A DNA stretch of 64,000 nt, taken from NCBI GenBank assembly GCA_021647315.1, contig JAKIUY010000004.1, forward strand, positions 1 to 64,000, given 5' to 3'. The position numbers and the translations under genes were made by a program. The stretch's first letter is position 1; each line of letters opens with the position of its first letter. Origin of the DNA: Victivallaceae bacterium (lineage in GTDB: Bacteria > Verrucomicrobiota > Lentisphaeria > Victivallales > Victivallaceae). Of the stretch, positions 12,739 to 28,889 are shown piece by piece. The notes under the pieces were generated by a model. The model did no database searches. It saw only the letters and a list, made by a program, of their open reading frames with translations, and had not been told where the DNA came from.

Positions 12739-12850
12739 TTATTTAAACTCATATTATACTTGTTTTGGTTGATATTTAAACTTTTATTTTTTACTTTTAA
12801 CCTTCAAATAGCCAAATAAACGAACTAAAAACTACCCAAAATGGGTATAT
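12738..12850 (-). promoter_or_regulatory. Conserved block E upstream of REC-PAS-GGDEF gene
   Basis: Read on the minus strand, a palindrome (TACCCA-TTT-TGGGTA, 12833-12847) is followed by about 85 AT-rich bases with the same landmarks as block D upstream of the HlyD gene (AAAAGTTTAAA, then a Lys/Asn-rich leader). The palindrome lies inside the last codons of the gene at 12825-14648. It is an operator or activator-site candidate. Confidence 0.5.
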
Positions 12851-18817: not shown

Positions 18818-19118
18818 GTGTCGCGCGACTTAAATAACTATACCCCCATTTTCGGCTCGACGGAGTCTCGCCCTCCAGTATCAAAATACAGTTCAACAAT
18901 GGAGGGCGAAAGTCCCTTGAGCTTTTTGTCTGTGCATTATGATCTGGGGATCACAAACTTATGTCGCGCGACTTAAATAACTATACCCCCATTTTCGGCT
19001 CGACGGAGTCTCGCCTTCCAGCATCAAAATACAGCGCAACGATGGAGGGCGAAAGTCCCTTGAGCTTTTTTGTTAGTCCATCATGAACGAGGGGGCATGA
19101 ACTTACGCCGAGCGACAC
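18818..19118. mobile_element. Two tandem copies of the GTGTCG MITE-like element
   Basis: Copies span about 18818-18970 and 18966-19118, fused head-to-tail through a shared GTCGCGCGAC junction. Each has the core pair CTCGACGGAGTCTCGCC / GGGCGAAAGTCCCTTGAG, which folds back around CCTCCA/TGGAGG, and outer ends GTGTCG/CGACAC next to TA. The right end supplies the stop codon of the PAS gene: TAG is made from the flanking TA plus the first G of the element. The whole 310-bp space between the hybrid kinase and PAS genes is this repeat. Confidence 0.75.
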
Positions 19119-20182
19119 TAGCCTAAAACATTAATTTTCTCCTGTAAAGTTTTTATCATCAGCTCTCTGCCAACGAATACTTTTAAGGTCTTATCGAGTT
19201 CTCTGTTTTTGTCTTCCAGTTCGCTGGTTCTTACTTTAACCTTTTCTTCCAGGGTTTCGCGGTATTTTTCTAATTTTGCTTCCAGACGCTTACGCTCAGA
19301 TATATCCTGGAACATGGCAACCATCTTGCCGGGCAAAGTCTGAAACGCATAAACCTCAAACGCCCCGCTAATGGCTCCGCTCTCATAAGTCACCTGTTCG
19401 GATTGCCATTTTCTCCCTTGAGATGCCACTTCCCGGTATATTTCCGGTATTTCAGTGTTGACTAATCCGGGAAAGGCTTCTTCTATATTTTTCCCAATGA
19501 ATTGACTGTTATCGACTCCAAGCAGGTGATCTGCAGCAGGGTTCGCACCAGTAAAAATTAGCTTGCCGTCTACTTCAAGGGAATAGATATGTATCCCCAT
19601 GGGGGTAGACTCCACAATGCTGCTAGCTTTTTTCTCACTCTCTTTGATTGCCGCTTCGGTCTGCCTGCGCTCGGTGACATCGGTGCCGATACTAAGGACG
19701 CCTGATATGGCTCCGTGTTCGTTTTTCAACACACTATTCTGCCAACTGATCAAGCGCTCTGAGCCATCCCGGCATAAAATATGATTTTCATAGGAAGATA
19801 CTTCCGACATTTTGCTGAGGACATCCTGAAAAACTTCTGGAATGACAAAGCCGTTACGTTTGGGAATGAACAGCTCAAACCAGTTTTTCCCGAACACTTC
19901 CTGCTTTGTATAACCGGATAGTTTTTCCGCAAAGCCGTTAAACAGCATAATATTGGCATCGGTATCTAATGTAACAATGATGACATTAGCGGTTTCCAAC
20001 AGGATTTCAGCAAATCCTTTTGTCTGTGGCAGAGGTTTCTGATTGGCGATAAGTTGTTTATTGTCGGGTTGTAGTTTTACTGCTGACCACCTGGCAACTG
20101 ATGCTTTTAATTCAACAATTTCAGCCTTTAAAATATCTATTTCTTTTAACTGTTGCTGGCTGGACTGATCAGTTTTTTTCAT
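19118..20182 (-). CDS. PAS-PAS sensor protein without output domain
   Basis: This protein is about 354 aa from the ATG at 20182, which has a clear GGAGG 4 nt upstream; an ATG 24 bp earlier is less likely. A coiled-coil N-terminus is followed by two PAS domains (about residues 60-170 and 185-305, with PAC motifs TDVTERRQ and QDISERKR). A coiled coil and the tail FVGRELMIKTLQEKINVLG end the protein. The N-terminal 160 residues are nearly a copy of the start of the 7243-9357 protein. No kinase or GGDEF domain follows, so it is probably an accessory sensor for the hybrid kinase encoded next (18790). Its last codon abuts a MITE end that provides the TAG stop, so a few original residues may be missing. 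Confidence 0.82.
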   Translation of the reverse strand: MKKTDQSSQQQLKEIDILKAEIVELKASVARWSAVKLQPDNKQLIANQKPLPQTKGFAEILLETANVIIVTLDTDANIMLFNGFAEKLSGYTKQEVFGKNWFELFIPKRNGFVIPEVFQDVLSKMSEVSSYENHILCRDGSERLISWQNSVLKNEHGAISGVLSIGTDVTERRQTEAAIKESEKKASSIVESTPMGIHIYSLEVDGKLIFTGANPAADHLLGVDNSQFIGKNIEEAFPGLVNTEIPEIYREVASQGRKWQSEQVTYESGAISGAFEVYAFQTLPGKMVAMFQDISERKRLEAKLEKYRETLEEKVKVRTSELEDKNRELDKTLKVFVGRELMIKTLQEKINVLG

Positions 20183-20271
20183 TTTTCCTCCATTTATAAG
20201 CATCAAATCATGCGTCTATCCAGTTTTTATAAAATTAATCAATAAATACTGAAAACGTCTTACAGACTGTT

Positions 20272-20360
20272 TATACCCATTATGGGTAGTTTTCAGTTAG
20301 TTTATCGGGTAAATTAAGCTCAAATGTACAGAATAAAAGTTTAAAATTCAACCTAAACGA
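20272..20360. promoter_or_regulatory. Conserved block C with palindrome TACCCATTATGGGTA
   Basis: The palindrome at 20274-20288 lies about 90 bp upstream of the PAS gene start. The following 70 bases are almost identical to block B at 2034-2105, including AAGCTCAAATGTACAGAAT and CAACCTAAACGAG. The long arm points away from the PAS gene towards the 3' end of the GGDEF gene, so either the palindrome acts alone or the block is a dispersed copy of a promoter. Confidence 0.5.
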
Positions 20361-20458
20361 GTTTACAACATACCTATTTACAAATTCCCTCTCCATAAAA
20401 ATTAACATAACCGCTATTCAATCATTTGTCAAAACATTTTTATTAATTCTGCGACATA

Positions 20459-22093
20459 TCAACCGTTAAAAATTATATCATCATGAGTTTTTATAATATT
20501 CTTACCTGATTGCTTGGCTAAGTACATGGCTTCATCAGCTTTTTTCAGTAAAATATCTTCGCTGTCATTCTTATCCAAAAAAAGTGCAATACCAATACTG
20601 GCACCTACACTTTTCTCTCTACCATTCAGCAAATATGGTTTCTGTAAAGATTTCAATATTTTTTGGGCCGTTATTTGGGCATTTTCAAGCGTCTCTACAT
20701 TTTGTAATATTACCGTAAATTCATCACCGCCAAATCTTGCAACCGTATCGGATTTACGCAATGTGCTACTAATTCTTTTAGCCGTTTCCCGCAAGACTAC
20801 ATCACCTGCATCATGACCAAGTAGATCATTTATCTGTTTAAATCCATCTAAATCAATAAATAATACCGCCAGCATCAGTCGATTTCTCACGGATAATTTC
20901 ATCGCTTGAGTCAAGCGGTCAAGAAACAGTTTACGGTTTGGAATAGCAGTAAGTTCATCAAAGTTGGCCATATGGCGCAGACCAAATAAATATAGCTTTT
21001 TATTTACTACTGATTGAGCAAGGAGCCATAAAATAACGCCAGCAATGACTATAAAAACTGCTGTAAGCCATAATAGATTAAAAAGCGAAAATCTACTCAT
21101 TTGCGCTTTGATCACTTTATCAGGGATGAAAGATATTAATTTCCAGTAGTAGCTTTGACTGCCAAAACTTTTACTACTTGCCCCGCCAGTAATTGCTGAA
21201 CCATTGCTGGAAATAATTTTATCAGCAAAAGGTGAGACCGTAGTCGAAGTAAAAATACCGCGGGAATTTCTGAATTGAGTCGCATTTTTTATGGAAATCT
21301 GCGCCCATTCATCAGTAAACTGCATGGAAAACTTACGTTTTTTTCTGTCGCTGAACATAAAACCCCATTCATTGCCCTTTTCCGAACAGTATAACCAATA
21401 ACCATCTGAATTAACCAGCATGGCTTCACCATTTGATAACTCAGCTATTTCAGTAATACTGGTTATAATATCTGCCGCCAAATAATTTAAGATGACTATA
21501 CCACTTTTATTCCCGTCAGGATCTGTTACCGGTGTCCCCACACGTATCATGGGCTTTAAAGGAAGTTCGACCTTACCTTTTTCAATATTTAAGTCCAGCG
21601 GTGAAACAAACATCTGACCAAACTCAAGGCGAATGGTATCTTTAAAATAATAGCGTTGGCTTTTTGATTGAAGCTTTTGTTCAGCCACAATATATGGGTT
21701 ACCGTTATTATAGTTGACTCTATTTGTTTCCATGCCATTTTTATCAATAAAGCGCACCTGATCATATATCGCCTTTGTTCTACAAAAAATCAGGTATTCA
21801 TTACTTTGATGCTTATGATTACAACAAAAACGCTCTCTATAAAGTCCAACCAAAAAACTCAAATCCGAGAATATGCCTGAAAGTTTTCTTTGAATACTTT
21901 GCTTCTCAAGTTCGATCACCGCACGATCTTTAAACATCAAATTATTTTCAACATCACTCAATTCAATATTATATAATACTAAAACAATAATGATAAAAAT
22001 TATATTGATCACACAAAACATTAAAATAAAGTATTTTAAAATACTTTTATTCTTATTATTTAAAACTGAAACATTCTTTGCAGAACTCGTCAC
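20459..22093 (-). CDS. Membrane diguanylate cyclase (dCACHE-GGDEF)
   Basis: This 544-aa protein has TM1 at about residues 20-42, a periplasmic dCACHE-type sensor (45-330, with RVGTPVTDPDGNKSGIVILNY), TM2 at about 343-366 and a C-terminal GGDEF domain. RFGGDEF is preceded by RKSD five residues upstream, the I-site. A catalytically active c-di-GMP synthase inhibited by its product is predicted, sensing a small extracellular molecule. Upstream lie a 248-bp inverted-end element and a 151-bp segment almost identical to one upstream of the HlyD-GT2 operon, so the two units may share a promoter region. Confidence 0.9.
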   Translation of the reverse strand: MTSSAKNVSVLNNKNKSILKYFILMFCVINIIFIIIVLVLYNIELSDVENNLMFKDRAVIELEKQSIQRKLSGIFSDLSFLVGLYRERFCCNHKHQSNEYLIFCRTKAIYDQVRFIDKNGMETNRVNYNNGNPYIVAEQKLQSKSQRYYFKDTIRLEFGQMFVSPLDLNIEKGKVELPLKPMIRVGTPVTDPDGNKSGIVILNYLAADIITSITEIAELSNGEAMLVNSDGYWLYCSEKGNEWGFMFSDRKKRKFSMQFTDEWAQISIKNATQFRNSRGIFTSTTVSPFADKIISSNGSAITGGASSKSFGSQSYYWKLISFIPDKVIKAQMSRFSLFNLLWLTAVFIVIAGVILWLLAQSVVNKKLYLFGLRHMANFDELTAIPNRKLFLDRLTQAMKLSVRNRLMLAVLFIDLDGFKQINDLLGHDAGDVVLRETAKRISSTLRKSDTVARFGGDEFTVILQNVETLENAQITAQKILKSLQKPYLLNGREKSVGASIGIALFLDKNDSEDILLKKADEAMYLAKQSGKNIIKTHDDIIFNG

Positions 22094-22135
22094 AATCGAA
22101 TTTCTCTCTTTTTAATCAATATTATTGCTCTCTAG

Positions 22136-22379
22136 AGGCAATTGCAAAAGTCGCCACGGCAGATTTTAACTTTTGAACGGCAGATTTTGATTTTGAGCTC
22201 ATTCATCCAGCACCTAAATGGATAGTTAACCATGATTTATTTAATGCATAGTATTTAGGTGCGGGACTCACTTTGCGCAGGCTGAGCCTAAGCGTAGTGA
22301 AAGGCAATCGCACAAGAGCTAGAATCGACTCGCCAAAAACGCTAAAAATCATGCTCACGCTGGACTTTTGAAATCACCT
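22136..22379. mobile_element. MITE-like element with GAGG-CAATTTCAAAAGTC ends (copy 1)
   Basis: The left end GAGGCAATTGCAAAAGTC pairs with the right end GACTTTTGAAATCACCTC. The flank is TA on the left and TG on the right. Inner landmarks (CCACGGCAGATTTT, GATTTTGAGCTCATT, CATGCTCACGCTGGAC) are shared with 26305-26468; this copy is about 80 bp longer in the middle. No coding capacity is visible. Confidence 0.7.
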
Positions 22380-22381
22380 CT

Positions 22382-22532
22382 GTTAATATAATATTTTTAC
22401 ACAACAATCTCCAAAAAATAATCTCGTCTTTATTATAACAATACTTTTCACTAAAGTCAAGTAAAAATAATAATATACCAACAACAAAGAATCAGACTTT
22501 ATAAAAATGTTGTTCAGTATTTTTTTGTGTAT
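22382..22532. repeat. 151-bp direct repeat, copy 1 (partner 26639-26787)
   Basis: An AT-rich segment nearly identical over its length to 26639-26787 and in the same orientation, with the common core CACTAAAGTCAAGTAAAA. Both copies sit immediately right of a GAGG-type MITE and upstream of a minus-strand signalling or EPS gene. It could be a duplicated promoter region or a mobile-element remnant. Confidence 0.8.
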
Positions 22533-22652
22533 TGTGCTGGTTCAGCGGTACCCATAATTTTACATGTTGAACAAAGCCGGCTATGCCGGAACGTCGAACA
22601 GCGAACTTTCAACAGCGAACGTCGAATAAACAGGGCCCCTGCGCTGACACTA

Positions 22653-22810
22653 GTGTCGTCCGGCGTAAGTTCGTGCCCCCCCTTTCTAGCTCGACGGAGT
22701 CTCGCCCTCCAGTATCAAAATCCAGTTCAACAATGGAGGGCGAAAGTCCCTTGAGCTTTTTGTCAGTGCATTATGATCTAAGGAGGTCACAAACTTATGC
22801 CGAGTAACAC
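22653..22810. mobile_element. GTGTCG MITE-like element, 158 bp
   Basis: GTGTCGTCCGGCGTAAGTT at the left end is inverted as AACTTATGCCGAGTAACAC at the right, with TA on both sides (22651-22652 and 22811-22812), consistent with a TA target duplication. The interior fold-back is CTCGACGGAGTCTCGCC / GGCGAAAGTCCCTTGAG. The bases just left (GACAC) mirror the element start, possibly the end of an earlier copy. A CCGGCTATGCCGG hairpin at about 22575 precedes it. Confidence 0.75.
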
Positions 22811-22892
22811 TAGGAATCTCTATGTGAGCAAGTAATAAAGGTATTTGCAATTGCCTCAATAGTCAGAAAATTACTTCAAGCAACGGTCATAA

Positions 22893-24848
22893 TCATTCCA
22901 TCTCTTTACCGAAAGCGCGTAGAAACAATTGGGAAATTACACTATATATGTGCTGTACACCAGCTACCTGATTATTATATTTACCCGTGAACAGCTTGGC
23001 AATAATTTCATCTCTCTGCTCGGAAGAAGTGTTAATAAATTTCACCATAAACGCCGCTTTATTAGAATTTATTATTTCCATAGACAGCAAACCTGAAATA
23101 TCTGGAATATGAATATCAGCTATATCACCACGCTGAACGATGCGTTCACCGGCACCGTGTCTGATTTTACAGCCGCCAAGCGAAAGATCCTCAATCACCA
23201 CCTTATGACCTCGAAAATCAATTTCTTCTTCAATTGGGAATCGCTCTTCAAGCCGTTTGCGTGGCGCGTCAATACAGATTAAAGCGCATATCCCAAGTAA
23301 CAAAATATTGAAAGTAGCCCAACCTATTGCATAGGGAAAGAACTGTTTGGTAGTTAATATCTGATACTCCGGCACCAGATTAATCATTATGCCTGCCAGT
23401 GTCAGAAAGATAAGGGTTAAAACTATGTATAGAATATAATAGTCAGTTCCGGTATCTGAACCCGAGCCCTTCGGGGTTACCTTAAACGGCACACCAAATG
23501 GCTTAATAATACTGGCAACAACTACCGGTAACATCCTAAACATACTGAAAACTCCAACTGCCGTAGAAATCAGCGGGATATATCTATTAGACGCTAACCA
23601 GCGTATTGCCAAAACAAACAGCAGCAGCATTGGCAGCTGATAGAACAGAATATCTCCGATATGAATAAAGTACATTGGCGACAGTCCGGTCCATAAATAG
23701 ACAATAGGAGTCATCAGCAGCATAAAACGGGTAATCGGCTGCACTAACCAACCGTAAGGAGCAAACAGCAGGCGCTGTAACGGTGACAGTCCTTTGGCGC
23801 GCAGTGGACCTTCCTTGACAAAGAAACATTGAATACCGCCTTGACACCACCTTGCCCGTTGCACAAAAAAACCTTCAACAGACTCCGAAGACATTCCCTG
23901 ACTAAGCTTTTCATTGAGATATATCGTGCGATAGTTAAAAGTCAACAAAGTCAGGGTTGTCAGCAAGTCTTCTGTAATTGATGATGTCGGTATACCACCT
24001 GCTTTTTCAATCGCTTCCCTACGAATAATCGAACATGAACCACAGCAAAATGCCGCATTCCAACTGTCCCGGCATGGCGCCATGGCATCAAAAAACAGCC
24101 GCTGTTCATCCGGCCAGACTTTACTCAGGTAAAGATTGGATTGAATAGGATCTTTATTGAAAAAATGCTGCGGTGTCTGGACTATGCCAATATCATCATT
24201 GTGAATAAAGAAACCAATAGTTCTCATCAGAAAATTTTTTGCGGGAATAAAATCAGCATCAAAAATAGCAAAGAGCTCACCGGAAGTATGCTTTAAAGCA
24301 CTATTCATATTGCCTGCTTTGGCATGTCTGTTATCCGGACGGGTTAAATACCCCACCCCCTTTTCAGCACAATGTTCTTTCAGCCACTGGCGTCTTGTAT
24401 CATCGAGAACCCAGACCTTAAAATTAGGATAATCAATATTTTTAGCACCAATAATAGTTTTTTCCAGAACATCGATTTCTTCGTTATAAGTTGGAATAAA
24501 AACATCAACAGATGGAAATCTGAAAAGATCTTTTTGATAATGATCAGCTTCTTTGTGACGTTCATTTGTTCTACTCATGATTAACAGGAAAATGACGACC
24601 TCAACAAAAGCCAGAACCTCGACACTGAACACAAATAATACCCAGAAATACCCTATGTCAAAATTTTTTTCACCCGGGGTAACGGTATAAAAATATCTCC
24701 ATAAAAGATAACGAATACCAATAACTACCGCAAATACTGCAACAATAGCACGATGCGCATTGTGTTCTTTATCTAAAAATGGTTTGACTAACAACCAGAA
24801 CGCAATAATAAATAACATCGGACTAAGAGAAAAAAGACTAAAAGACAC
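22893..24848 (-). CDS. Cellulose-synthase-like GT2 glycosyltransferase with PilZ domain
   Basis: This 651-aa protein starts at a GTG inside the last codons of the HlyD gene (11-bp overlap), indicating translational coupling. It has N-terminal TM helices, a GT2 domain with VFIPTYNE, the DD of WVLDD, the DxD motif in FDADF, TED in SITEDLLTT, and QRARW, the Q-x-x-R-W signature of processive beta-glycan synthases. Several TM helices follow, then a C-terminal PilZ domain (RKRLEERFP and EDLSLGGCKI, matching RxxxR and DxSxxG) that binds c-di-GMP. The layout equals BcsA. It should polymerise and export a beta-linked glycan across the inner membrane when c-di-GMP is high. The sugar is unknown. No BcsB, BcsC, Alg44 or AlgE homologue is visible; HlyD may replace the periplasmic partner. 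Confidence 0.9.
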   Translation of the reverse strand: MSFSLFSLSPMLFIIAFWLLVKPFLDKEHNAHRAIVAVFAVVIGIRYLLWRYFYTVTPGEKNFDIGYFWVLFVFSVEVLAFVEVVIFLLIMSRTNERHKEADHYQKDLFRFPSVDVFIPTYNEEIDVLEKTIIGAKNIDYPNFKVWVLDDTRRQWLKEHCAEKGVGYLTRPDNRHAKAGNMNSALKHTSGELFAIFDADFIPAKNFLMRTIGFFIHNDDIGIVQTPQHFFNKDPIQSNLYLSKVWPDEQRLFFDAMAPCRDSWNAAFCCGSCSIIRREAIEKAGGIPTSSITEDLLTTLTLLTFNYRTIYLNEKLSQGMSSESVEGFFVQRARWCQGGIQCFFVKEGPLRAKGLSPLQRLLFAPYGWLVQPITRFMLLMTPIVYLWTGLSPMYFIHIGDILFYQLPMLLLFVLAIRWLASNRYIPLISTAVGVFSMFRMLPVVVASIIKPFGVPFKVTPKGSGSDTGTDYYILYIVLTLIFLTLAGIMINLVPEYQILTTKQFFPYAIGWATFNILLLGICALICIDAPRKRLEERFPIEEEIDFRGHKVVIEDLSLGGCKIRHGAGERIVQRGDIADIHIPDISGLLSMEIINSNKAAFMVKFINTSSEQRDEIIAKLFTGKYNNQVAGVQHIYSVISQLFLRAFGKEME

Positions 24849-26061
24849 GAATAAACCTACTTAAAAAGTTCCAATGGCTCCACTTGCGTGGGAATTTAAC
24901 AGTTACTCTTCGTCCAACCTGAGAAAATGCATTATCACTCATAATAACATCTCCCGAATCGGCTTTCACCCAAATTCTAAACTCTTTTTTAGGATCTTTC
25001 TTGAGTGATGCCGCTAAATTGACATCCCCCTGAACAATACCAGACCCCCGCGTTGTAAAAACCACCCCATAGTGCGTTTTCACCTCACCTTTCAATTGAA
25101 AAGAGACCTTTGTCCCAGGAATAATATTATCAAACTCAGATTCAGAAACCGTGATGTCCAGAAATACGCTCTTAAGCTCCAGCAAAATTATTGTTTCAGA
25201 GTCAATTACCATGGTACTGCCACTGCTCGACGGCATACGCCACACTAAGCAGTCAAACGGAGCTATTATGAGATACTTCCTCATCCGTTTAATTCGCTGC
25301 TGCTCTTCTACAATTTGCTGTTCAATTCCTTGCAGGCGATTAACCGACTCGTTGTATACAGTTTCAGCCAATGATATTTCAATCACCAATTGATCCCACC
25401 GCTGTTTAGAATATGGCGAATCTTGATTACCTTCTTCGAGAAAAATACCAGTTTTTATCGCAGCCAGTGAATTATCAAGTTCTGCCAAACGCCCCTTGAT
25501 CTGAGTTAAACGGGCACTGGATTCCACAAGATTGGCTTCATGCCTTTCCAATTCACGATCGCCTATAGCCTTTTTCTTAATTAGAAAACGTGAAGATTCA
25601 TATTCAGCTTTAGCCCGTATATTTTCAGCTAATTCCGCTGCTAATCGCTGTTTCTCCTGGTCAATTTGTAAAGAAAAACGTTGCTGTGAGAATTTTTGAT
25701 GGTCAGCTGTCTTCTTTTTAAGAGAAGCACTTAATTCAGAGAAAGATCTAATTCTTTTCCTTATACTGTCAATTCTGGCTTGCAACGTTTTCGTTTCGGT
25801 CCGCAATTCATAGAGAAAACTATTATTAATTCTGTCATTGGTTATCGCTCCAATCACTTCACCTTTTTTAAAAAAGGTTCCATATTCAGTTGCTTTTGCA
25901 AATTGCAGTTTACCCTCAATAGGACTGTGTAAGGTTAATATTCTACCATTAACAACCCCATCCGCAGAGTTAAACAAATACAATTTAGGCGCAATGGCAA
26001 AAAAAAGCACTACAATCACCATTAAACCTATAAAAATGCGGGTTTTCTTTTTATTTAACAT
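24838..26061 (-). CDS. HlyD-type membrane-fusion protein partnered with the GT2 synthase
   Basis: In this 407-aa protein an N-terminal TM helix (about 9-28) is followed by a lipoyl-like half (GRILTLHSPIEGKLQFAKATEYGTFFKKGEVIGAI). A long coiled-coil hairpin (about 85-265) comes next, then the second lipoyl half (YLIIAPFDCLVWRMPSSSGSTMVIDSETIILLE) and beta-barrel region. HlyD/EmrA-type adaptors bridge inner and outer membranes in secretion. The 3' end overlaps the GT2 gene, so the pair is one operon and the protein probably carries polymer through the periplasm, as Alg44's HlyD-like region does for alginate. A conserved block with a 15-bp palindrome is directly upstream. Confidence 0.85.
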   Translation of the reverse strand: MLNKKKTRIFIGLMVIVVLFFAIAPKLYLFNSADGVVNGRILTLHSPIEGKLQFAKATEYGTFFKKGEVIGAITNDRINNSFLYELRTETKTLQARIDSIRKRIRSFSELSASLKKKTADHQKFSQQRFSLQIDQEKQRLAAELAENIRAKAEYESSRFLIKKKAIGDRELERHEANLVESSARLTQIKGRLAELDNSLAAIKTGIFLEEGNQDSPYSKQRWDQLVIEISLAETVYNESVNRLQGIEQQIVEEQQRIKRMRKYLIIAPFDCLVWRMPSSSGSTMVIDSETIILLELKSVFLDITVSESEFDNIIPGTKVSFQLKGEVKTHYGVVFTTRGSGIVQGDVNLAASLKKDPKKEFRIWVKADSGDVIMSDNAFSQVGRRVTVKFPRKWSHWNFLSRFIRVF

Positions 26062-26152
26062 ATACTCGTTTAGTTTGAATTTTAAACTTTTATTATGTAT
26101 AATTTAGCTTAATTTGCCAGTTAAACTAATTAAAACCTACCCATAATGGGTA
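26062..26152 (-). promoter_or_regulatory. Conserved block D: putative operator and promoter of the HlyD-GT2 operon
   Basis: On the minus strand the palindrome TACCCATTATGGGTA (26138-26152) is followed 13 bp later by TTAACT (26124-26119), a 17-bp spacer and TATACA (26101-26096), a plausible sigma-70 promoter about 35 bp before the ATG. A palindrome just upstream of -35 suits an activator. The whole block matches blocks B, C and E. Confidence 0.55.
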
Positions 26153-26304
26153 TAAATTCAGATAACTCTATAATATTAAAGACCGAAATGAATATCGATG
26201 AAATATAATTAACCACCAATAATCAAACGACCTTATTTTACCCTGACAGGTTAAGCTTTTTACCTGCCACAACACTTGTCATTATTGTAATTAGTTTATT
26301 ATAG

Positions 26305-26468
26305 AGGCAATTTCAAAAGTCTCCACGGCAGATTTTTAATTTTGAACGGCATCTTTTGATTTTGAGCTCATTTACATACCTACCGGTATGCTCAATCGCT
26401 AAAAAATCAAAATCTACTCGCCCAAAATGATAAAAAATCATGCTCGCGTTGGACTTTTGAAATCACCT
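26305..26468. mobile_element. MITE-like element with GAGG-CAATTTCAAAAGTC ends (copy 2)
   Basis: The ends GAGGCAATTTCAAAAGTC and GACTTTTGAAATCACCTC are inverted, flanked by TA on both sides. It is 164 bp and shares its interior with copy 1 in the same orientation. A small ACCTACCGGTATG palindrome lies inside. No ORF. Confidence 0.75.
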
Positions 26469-26638
26469 CTATAACGCAAAACTGACCACTTTATTCAACA
26501 GTCACACTCTTTCAAAATAACGATAAAACTATTTGTCAAAAGTTGCCGCCATCTAAAGCTGAAACCGCTGGGTTTAGCAAGTCAATACTATATAAACACA
26601 TAATAGGTGTCAATTAAATATCTTATTTTTACTGTTAA

Positions 26639-26787
26639 GTTAATATAATATATTAACACAACAATCTCCCAAAAGTAACATCGCCTTTATTATAACAATA
26701 CTTTTCACTAAAGTCAAGTAAAAATAATAATATACAGCAACAAATAATCAGACTTTATAAAAATGTTGTTCAGTATTTTTTGTGTAT
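26639..26787. repeat. 149-bp direct repeat, copy 2 (partner 22382-22532)
   Basis: Almost the same sequence and orientation as 22382-22532. About 170 bp of unique DNA separates it from the MITE copy to its left, whereas in copy 1 the two are adjacent. Together with the flanking elements it brackets the HlyD-GT2 operon. Confidence 0.8.
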
Positions 26788-26832
26788 GTATTAAAAACCT
26801 AGGGTCGAGTAATCACTGGCGCATGTGCGCTT

Positions 26833-27172
26833 TCATTTTTTTTCGGTTGTGACGGAGGATATGCGCAGTACATTTTGATTTGCATAAAGGCTGTCAAGCA
26901 ATATGTACAACGACAGCCTCGGAAGGCGTTCTTTCAGGATTTCAGCAAGACGATAAAAAGCATTGAGTTCACAGTCCTCTTTGTTATATTCTTCTTCAGT
27001 TTCAATGAATACCGTTGCCAGGGAAAGTCCCATTCCCTCTTCTGTTACAATTTTAGCCTCAAGAGCATAGCAGCAACTGTATTTTTCCCCATTGATTGTT
27101 TTTTTGGTGGAGTTTTTATGTTCGCCTTTGCGGGTAAAAAGGTGCACTCCATCTATTGCAACTAATACCGTT
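26833..27172 (-). pseudogene. Transposase fragment, truncated at both ends
   Basis: The frame is open upstream of 27147, reading TVLVAIDGVHLFTRKGEHKN, then KYSCCYALEAKIV ... GLSLATVFIETEEEYNKEDCELNAFYRLAEILKERLPRL, and LYILLDSLYANQNVL near the end. This is the central DDE core (first Asp in AIDGVH, second in LLDSLYA) of a transposase family often found in environmental genomes; I cannot name the IS family. The N-terminus is cut at the 15-mer TTTTAGATCGCAAAA and the C-terminus ends in unrelated residues (ISSVTTEKK). Not functional. Confidence 0.7.
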
Positions 27173-27330
27173 TTGCGATCTAAAAGCTATTAAAGAGCTG
27201 CGCAGTTGAGCTTAAATAGGCGCAGTAAACTAGCTAAAAGAATGCACTTGTGTATAAGAATTCTCCATTTGAGTTGCGGTATAAGATAAATTGCCAATTT
27301 CAATAGCAGAACTTATGGGACACGGTACTA

Positions 27331-27484
27331 GTGTCATCAGGCGTAAGTCCGTGACCCCCTTTTCGGCTCGACGGAGTCTCGCCCTCCAGCATCAAAATCC
27401 AGCTTAACAATGGAGGGCGAAAGTCCCTTGAGCTTTTTGTTAGTGCATTATTAACAGGGGTCACATACTTACGCCGAGCAGCAC
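27331..27484. mobile_element. GTGTCG MITE-like element, 154 bp
   Basis: GTGTCATCAGGCGTAAGT at the left end is inverted as ACTTACGCCGAGCAGCAC at the right, with TA on both sides (27329-27330, 27485-27486). It has the same orientation and core fold-back as the copy at 22653-22810. Confidence 0.75.
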
Positions 27485-27490
27485 TAGTTA

Positions 27491-27767: not shown

Positions 27768-28889
27768 TTAGTCTTTCAGTTCAACTCCTAAATCGGCCTC
27801 TTTTAAAACAGCAATAAAACTCTCCAGTATATCAAATTTATTGCTTATCCTCCAGTCAACCACTGTTCCACCAAGCTCTGATTCCGATTTTTTCCATTCA
27901 AACCAGTTAATCATTTTAATCATTGGAAACTGCGTGCGACTTTCCTCTGAAAAAACCTGATTCAACCAATTTTTCTTAATTTGGTCCTCTAAGTCTGCGG
28001 TCCCGATTGAAGGAACAAAAAGTGCAGCTGTCTCCGGAATTGCCATCGGCTTCTCATTGTCGACCGCATAAATATGATAAAAATCAGGAATCATGGAGTC
28101 ATCACCATTTAAACCATTATAGGTTCCTGTAAGCTGGGCAGCAAATTTTCCATCCTCGGGGATCTCATTCTCACCCCATGGATAACTGCTTCCCCAGTGG
28201 TATAAAGTCATAGCCACCCAGTCAACAGCATCGTCCCCCGGATAATATGGGCCGTAAGGGTCATCGTAAGCATCAACCTTCCCGTCTGAATTAGTATCAA
28301 GAACGCCAAAATCAGGATCACCTGGCTTTATCCCGTACTGACCACCTACAAACGGATAACCGCCACCATAGTTTGGTGCCCAAATCATTGCAGCCTTGCT
28401 TTTAGCCACCCTGTGCAGAGCATCCGCCATCATTTTAAATGCTCGCTTATATTCAGTCGGCTGTTGGCTCCAAGGATACCAGGAACCATTCATTTCATGT
28501 GCGAAACGAACAAAAATACGAACTCCAGCTTTTTTAAAGATTTCTGCGTGCCTGTCAGCTTCTCCCTCAGTTATTGAAGCTAATCCATCCCAAGGTTCGA
28601 GAGTAACAAGCAGATACGCCTTATGCTTTTTCACCAACTTAGCTGTCCGCTTAAGCGTTTTAACATCCTCTTCATCCATAGGAAAAGCAAAAAAACGAAT
28701 ATAAACTCGGGGACTGAAACCCCATCGCTTGTAAATTTTATTGGGAGTATCATTTGCCCAGTCAAGATTCAAGCCAAAATACCCCCCATTTTTCGGAGCA
28801 AGCCTTGCCTTGTTATCCGAAGTTGCAGCCTCAATATCAACGATAAATTGAGAAATACACAAAAAGAACAATATTAAAAAAAACTTCAT
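27768..28889 (-). CDS. Secreted GH26-like glycoside hydrolase (copy 2)
   Basis: This 373-aa protein has a signal peptide at about residues 1-21. It shows HEMNGSWYPW with acid/base Glu at about 132, nucleophile candidate Glu at about 286 (AIPETAAL), and the same dockerin-like calcium loop (DTNSDGKVDAYD, about 198-209). Most of the length is identical or similar to copy 1 at 896-1999, so the two arose by duplication and now sit at opposite ends of the c-di-GMP/GT2 island. The tail is about five residues longer than copy 1 (ELKD), just where a MITE-like element begins. No palindrome block was found upstream. Known GH26 members are endo-beta-mannanases and related enzymes; the substrate here is not determined. 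Confidence 0.82.
   Translation of the reverse strand: MKFFLILFFLCISQFIVDIEAATSDNKARLAPKNGGYFGLNLDWANDTPNKIYKRWGFSPRVYIRFFAFPMDEEDVKTLKRTAKLVKKHKAYLLVTLEPWDGLASITEGEADRHAEIFKKAGVRIFVRFAHEMNGSWYPWSQQPTEYKRAFKMMADALHRVAKSKAAMIWAPNYGGGYPFVGGQYGIKPGDPDFGVLDTNSDGKVDAYDDPYGPYYPGDDAVDWVAMTLYHWGSSYPWGENEIPEDGKFAAQLTGTYNGLNGDDSMIPDFYHIYAVDNEKPMAIPETAALFVPSIGTADLEDQIKKNWLNQVFSEESRTQFPMIKMINWFEWKKSESELGGTVVDWRISNKFDILESFIAVLKEADLGVELKD

Follow-up and report, generated by a model that had tools for sequence, protein, structure and literature searches.

The 64-kb stretch of DNA analysed here (the window) contains two copies of a 151-bp direct repeat that probably constitute a duplicated promoter module, one that would co-express a c-di-GMP-activated glucan synthase and a diguanylate cyclase, and the MITEs found beside both copies would be independent insertions. 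Promoter activity, co-regulation and duplication as an event are each something that we infer from the sequence. The genes, repeat copies and predicted promoters are as follows.

20459–22093, minus strand: sensor diguanylate cyclase (Pfam HK_sensor_dom_bact and GGDEF; motifs intact)
22893–24848, minus strand: GT2 glucan synthase, BgsA-like, with a C-terminal PilZ domain (identity to S. meliloti, Pfam, motifs)
24838–26061, minus strand: HlyD-like membrane-fusion protein, BgsB-like (similarity to S. meliloti; conserved in three Victivallaceae genera)
22382–22532, minus strand: left 151-bp repeat, two-copy, putative promoter-bearing segment facing the diguanylate cyclase gene
26639–26787, minus strand: right 151-bp repeat, putative promoter-bearing segment facing the HlyD-GT2 operon
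22432–22460, minus strand: predicted left sigma-70-like promoter, TTGACT-N17-TATAAT with TGn (motif scan and shuffles)
26689–26717, minus strand: predicted right sigma-70-like promoter, 29-mer identical to the left (motif scan and shuffles)

The two copies of the repeat are 93% identical (E=7e-57) and occur at exactly two places in the 4.86-Mb assembly, 4.3 kb apart, both intergenic and each before a non-homologous gene (the cyclase gene and the HlyD gene). The segment is A+T-rich, and one explanation for the pair would be chance similarity of A+T-rich DNA; however, with 151 bp matching at this level in two places only, the probability of such an origin is negligible, and the left and right segments that the initial annotation had likened do align by more than chance. 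The assembly is a 217-contig draft (∼94% complete), and a repeat-collapse artefact is unlikely for this pair because the copies differ by 7% and lie well within one 86.7-kb contig. The longest perfect stretch shared by the copies, 51 bp, takes in the promoter core together with A+T-rich DNA on its upstream side, and clustering of the differences outside the core was weak (p=0.05). No full copy was found in 136 other genomes of the order, and a comparison with plasmids and phages gave no match. Weak partial matches (E of 1e-5 to 6e-4) in G026, G082, G032 and G121 were taken as A+T-rich chance, because they cover different stretches of the repeat and because the best of them (L127) would have the promoter pointing into the 3′ end of a gene. 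The three nearest carriers of the operon belong to other genera (GT2 62% identical), and all are without the 151-bp element.

The predicted promoter is an 11/12 match with a 17-nt spacer and an extended −10 element (TGn), and the same 29-mer is present in both copies. The initial annotation's suggestion that a promoter-bearing segment was duplicated is supported for the 151-bp part. Scores as high were reached by 3 of 1000 and 1 of 1000 shuffles for the two copies, and the only two sites in the window that combine this match, spacer and TGn are those within the repeat. Both predicted promoters are on the strand that faces the genes; the left one points to the sensor diguanylate cyclase, with 339 nt from the −10 to the start codon, and the right one to the HlyD-GT2 operon, with 628 nt. 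Both leaders now contain MITEs, of which the GAGG RNA is predicted to fold strongly (−54 kcal/mol, plus strand), and further promoter-like sites occur closer to the genes, for example at 26613–26585.

A different account would make the 151-bp repeat a remnant of a low-copy mobile element, or an insertion-sequence end, with no regulatory role and with the promoter being the element's own. The surroundings are rich in repeats, and an ORF adjoining the right copy (26833–27147) had been proposed as a transposase fragment; however, that ORF had no Pfam or NCBIfam match, no plasmid relative and no other copy in the genome, and its identity as a transposase was not confirmed. Moreover, neither terminal inverted repeats nor a target duplication was seen at the ends of the 151-bp copies, no third copy was found in the genome, the genomes of the order compared, plasmids or phages, and the genes whose 5′ ends the two copies face are functionally linked. 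We consider a mobile-element origin unlikely.

Two further dispersed elements lie near the right copy. In the right interval, 27163–27257 is a fourth dispersed element of ∼95 bp with at least 40 copies at 92–100% identity, a young and very uniform family that is often found between convergent genes. The fifth, also ∼95 bp, is at 26061–26156, with ∼40 among the copies listed genome-wide; this copy is inverted and directly precedes the HlyD start codon, and others are at 20270–20365, 2017–2107 and 12755–12849. An Rfam search of 18.8–29 kb returned nothing near threshold.

The remaining repeats on the two sides of the operon belong to the GAGG and GTGTCG families.

22133–22381, plus strand: left GAGG MITE, old and diverged, with ∼100 bp of extra middle sequence
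26302–26471, plus strand: right GAGG MITE, young and near the family consensus
22648–22813, plus strand: left GTGTCG element, closest long copy at 18843–18966
27326–27488, plus strand: right GTGTCG element, closest copy at C158:21309–21430

Both families were assigned to the MITEs by the features in which they resemble them: they are 160–250 bp long, palindromic, non-coding, dispersed in tens of copies and for the most part intergenic, among genes in every sort of arrangement. The ends of GAGG elements are flanked by TA. GAGG members occupy at least ∼40 distinct places (40 of 151 candidates scored), and the 7 copies in a 400-kb sample extrapolate to roughly 85 genome-wide; for GTGTCG, 27 were among the matches listed, five of them long. 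Four of the few long GTGTCG copies lie within 9 kb (18844, 18987, 22649 and 27327), and two of these (18844–18969 and 18987–19121) are in tandem between PAS and hybrid-kinase genes.

The relationships among these copies bear on whether the left and right elements arose together. Copies on other contigs, 98–99% identical, are the nearest relatives of the right GAGG element, and private changes number 17 in the left copy and 1 in the right (p=1.4e-4); the GAGG tree is star-like with no supported fork, and the argument that the two are not sisters consists in this unequal decay and in the lack of clear shared changes. The left GTGTCG element is 90.6–91.3% identical to the copy at 18843, with which it has bases in common that are absent from the right copy, whereas the right one is 95–96% identical to the C158 copy; the grouping was decided by these identities and shared bases, the GTGTCG tree being unresolved, and the relative-rate counts for the left/right pair (11 versus 8 changes) differ little. 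Because co-duplication predicts sister copies with similar decay, which is not what was observed, we conclude that the MITE pairs were not co-duplicated; the left and right MITEs look independently inserted. The comparisons mark the 151-bp repeat as the one true pair among the three, the other two being dispersed elements.

The initial annotation had treated the three repeats as a single three-part direct repeat, and all three pairs are present left and right of the operon in equal order and orientation. This agreement would be expected if the operon and the whole trio had been copied together as a single segment that now served as a recombination substrate for the loss, amplification or exchange of polymer genes. 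The trio is also not scattered randomly over the genome: of 29 further GAGG loci that were examined, not one had a 151-bp or GTGTCG copy within ∼1.5 kb, and no local repeat pair (≥90 bp, ≥80% identity, within any 20-kb stretch) was present in 400 kb sampled elsewhere, against which the locus is a local repeat hotspot. The locus is special, and to find the trio on each side of it is an unusual coincidence for this genome. However, besides the unequal decay of the non-sister MITEs, the spacing differs between the two sides, since the GAGG element abuts the 151-bp repeat on the left and is 167 bp away on the right, and the distance from the 151-bp repeat to the GTGTCG element is 115 bp on the left versus 538 bp on the right. 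The DNA between the parts is also unlike, with no convincing similarity of the left and right flanks outside the 151 bp (the best of three comparisons gave an 11-point local score, reached in 23 of 1000 shuffles). The shared order arises in part from the gene layout, in that GTGTCG copies in this gene row are 3′ of minus-strand genes and GAGG copies are 5′ of the next gene. In addition, the 151-bp repeat being at two places only, no alternative junction was found in the assembly. We regard duplication of the trio as one unit as quite improbable, and the idea of a long recombination cassette was not supported, with the MITEs not co-duplicated, the perfect match within the 151-bp pair no longer than the stretch given above, and no trace of amplification or excision seen. 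Recombination between the 151-bp copies themselves is possible and would delete HlyD-GT2, leaving one hybrid promoter before the cyclase.

The HlyD and GT2 genes overlap by 11 bp, with HlyD directly upstream, in one operon. The GT2 protein shares 46.5% identity over 98% with the protein encoded at 403689–405629 of S. meliloti 1021 pSymB, and the HlyD protein is 28% identical over 398 residues to the protein encoded upstream of that GT2; the pSymB locus, unannotated in the sequence record, was identified as bgsBA by its published description (PMC9495663) and gene order. In S. meliloti, BgsA is SM_b20391 with BgsB upstream (PMC9495663), and bgsBA is responsible for a mixed-linkage β-glucan and is activated by c-di-GMP (PMC5567048, PMC9495663). 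The arrangement is the same here, an HlyD-like gene followed by a GT2 gene in one direction, and by analogy the product of the operon would be a mixed-linkage glucan. The GT2 protein contains the motifs LDD, DAD, TED and QRARW and a gating loop (FxVTxK, as FKVTPK), together with a PilZ domain (Pfam, E=1e-6) in which RxxxR (as RLEER) and DxSxxG (as DLSLGG) are intact. This host differs from S. meliloti in belonging to a Lentisphaerota lineage, and its synthase differs from BgsA, which is reported to be without PilZ motifs (PMC5567048). Because PilZ is present, in contrast to the non-PilZ C-terminal c-di-GMP-binding domain reported for BgsA, we named the GT2 protein BgsA-like rather than BgsA; a BgsA-like synthase with a canonical PilZ domain could be intermediate between BgsA and cellulose synthase. 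Upstream of the operon (27768–28889) is a gene for a GH26 protein whose only PDB matches, over ∼60 residues, were to Clostridium thermocellum endoglucanase H (GH26), a lichenase; such a match would fit a mixed-linkage glucan. In a related Lentisphaeria assembly (L072, 4758–6045) the HlyD gene is split into two frames, either by a real break or by a sequencing error.

In the sensor diguanylate cyclase, the GGDEF motif and the RxxD inhibitory site are intact. GGDEF proteins were found in 6 of 78 Victivallaceae genomes, that is, in all 4 carriers of HlyD-GT2 and in 2 of the remaining 74 (p=1e-5, uncorrected for relatedness), and they appear rare in this Lentisphaerota family except alongside the operon. 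Two other Victivallaceae records have the row HlyD-GT2-HD-GGDEF in one direction, and a third has HlyD-GT2 followed by the start of a GGDEF-protein-like gene that is cut by the contig end. In these relatives the synthase and cyclase genes share a single row, and the cyclase differs from that of the window, so the pairing seen here is not ancestral in this form. The minus strand of 2281–28889 holds a row of c-di-GMP and sensory genes, comprising those for an HD-GYP-like HD_5 protein, histidine kinases, PAS proteins, two receiver-PAS-GGDEF proteins, the sensor cyclase, GT2-HlyD and the GH26 protein.

These observations are consistent with a mechanism based on promoter duplication, in which one 151-bp copy would drive the HlyD-GT2 operon and the other the sensor diguanylate cyclase. 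A common signal acting on both promoter copies would cause the synthase complex and the sensor cyclase to be made together; c-di-GMP would then bind the PilZ domain and free the gating loop, as in cellulose synthase, and the HlyD-like protein would help to export the glucan. The GAGG and GTGTCG elements, both palindromic and dispersed, would have entered these same intergenic spaces by independent insertion. The functional steps of this scheme are modelled on known families, and what we observed are the sequence features. In S. meliloti the target of c-di-GMP is the BgsA protein itself, and bgsBA transcription in R. etli is not raised by c-di-GMP (PMC9495663), so that joint production of a cyclase and the synthase would make sense.

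Duplicated promoters are a known kind of arrangement, which is met here in a c-di-GMP and glucan context. Mobile promoters and promoter propagation in prokaryotes were described by Matus-Garcia et al. 2012 and van Passel et al. 2014, as cited in PMC9208149 and PMC8049555; in both those accounts and the present case, as far as these citing papers relate, a short intergenic promoter-bearing sequence is repeated before non-homologous genes in one genome, but here there are two copies only, close together and before functionally linked genes. The locus also carries a caution: where a genome is rich in repeats, three of them in a fixed order do not have to form a single unit.

Should the 151-bp copies prove to be active promoters, the locus would be a compact and clear natural example of how promoter duplication can couple regulation, the synthase and the enzyme that makes its activator being linked as separate transcription units instead of in one operon. 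A wider reading, which we consider rather unlikely, is that in a family almost without c-di-GMP signalling the glucan synthase and cyclases of its own have stayed together, with the copied promoter tying activator and target into one expression unit; the locus would then be a self-contained module that could be transferred whole. The locus points to c-di-GMP-controlled glucan synthesis in the Lentisphaerota, where GGDEF proteins appear to be rare.
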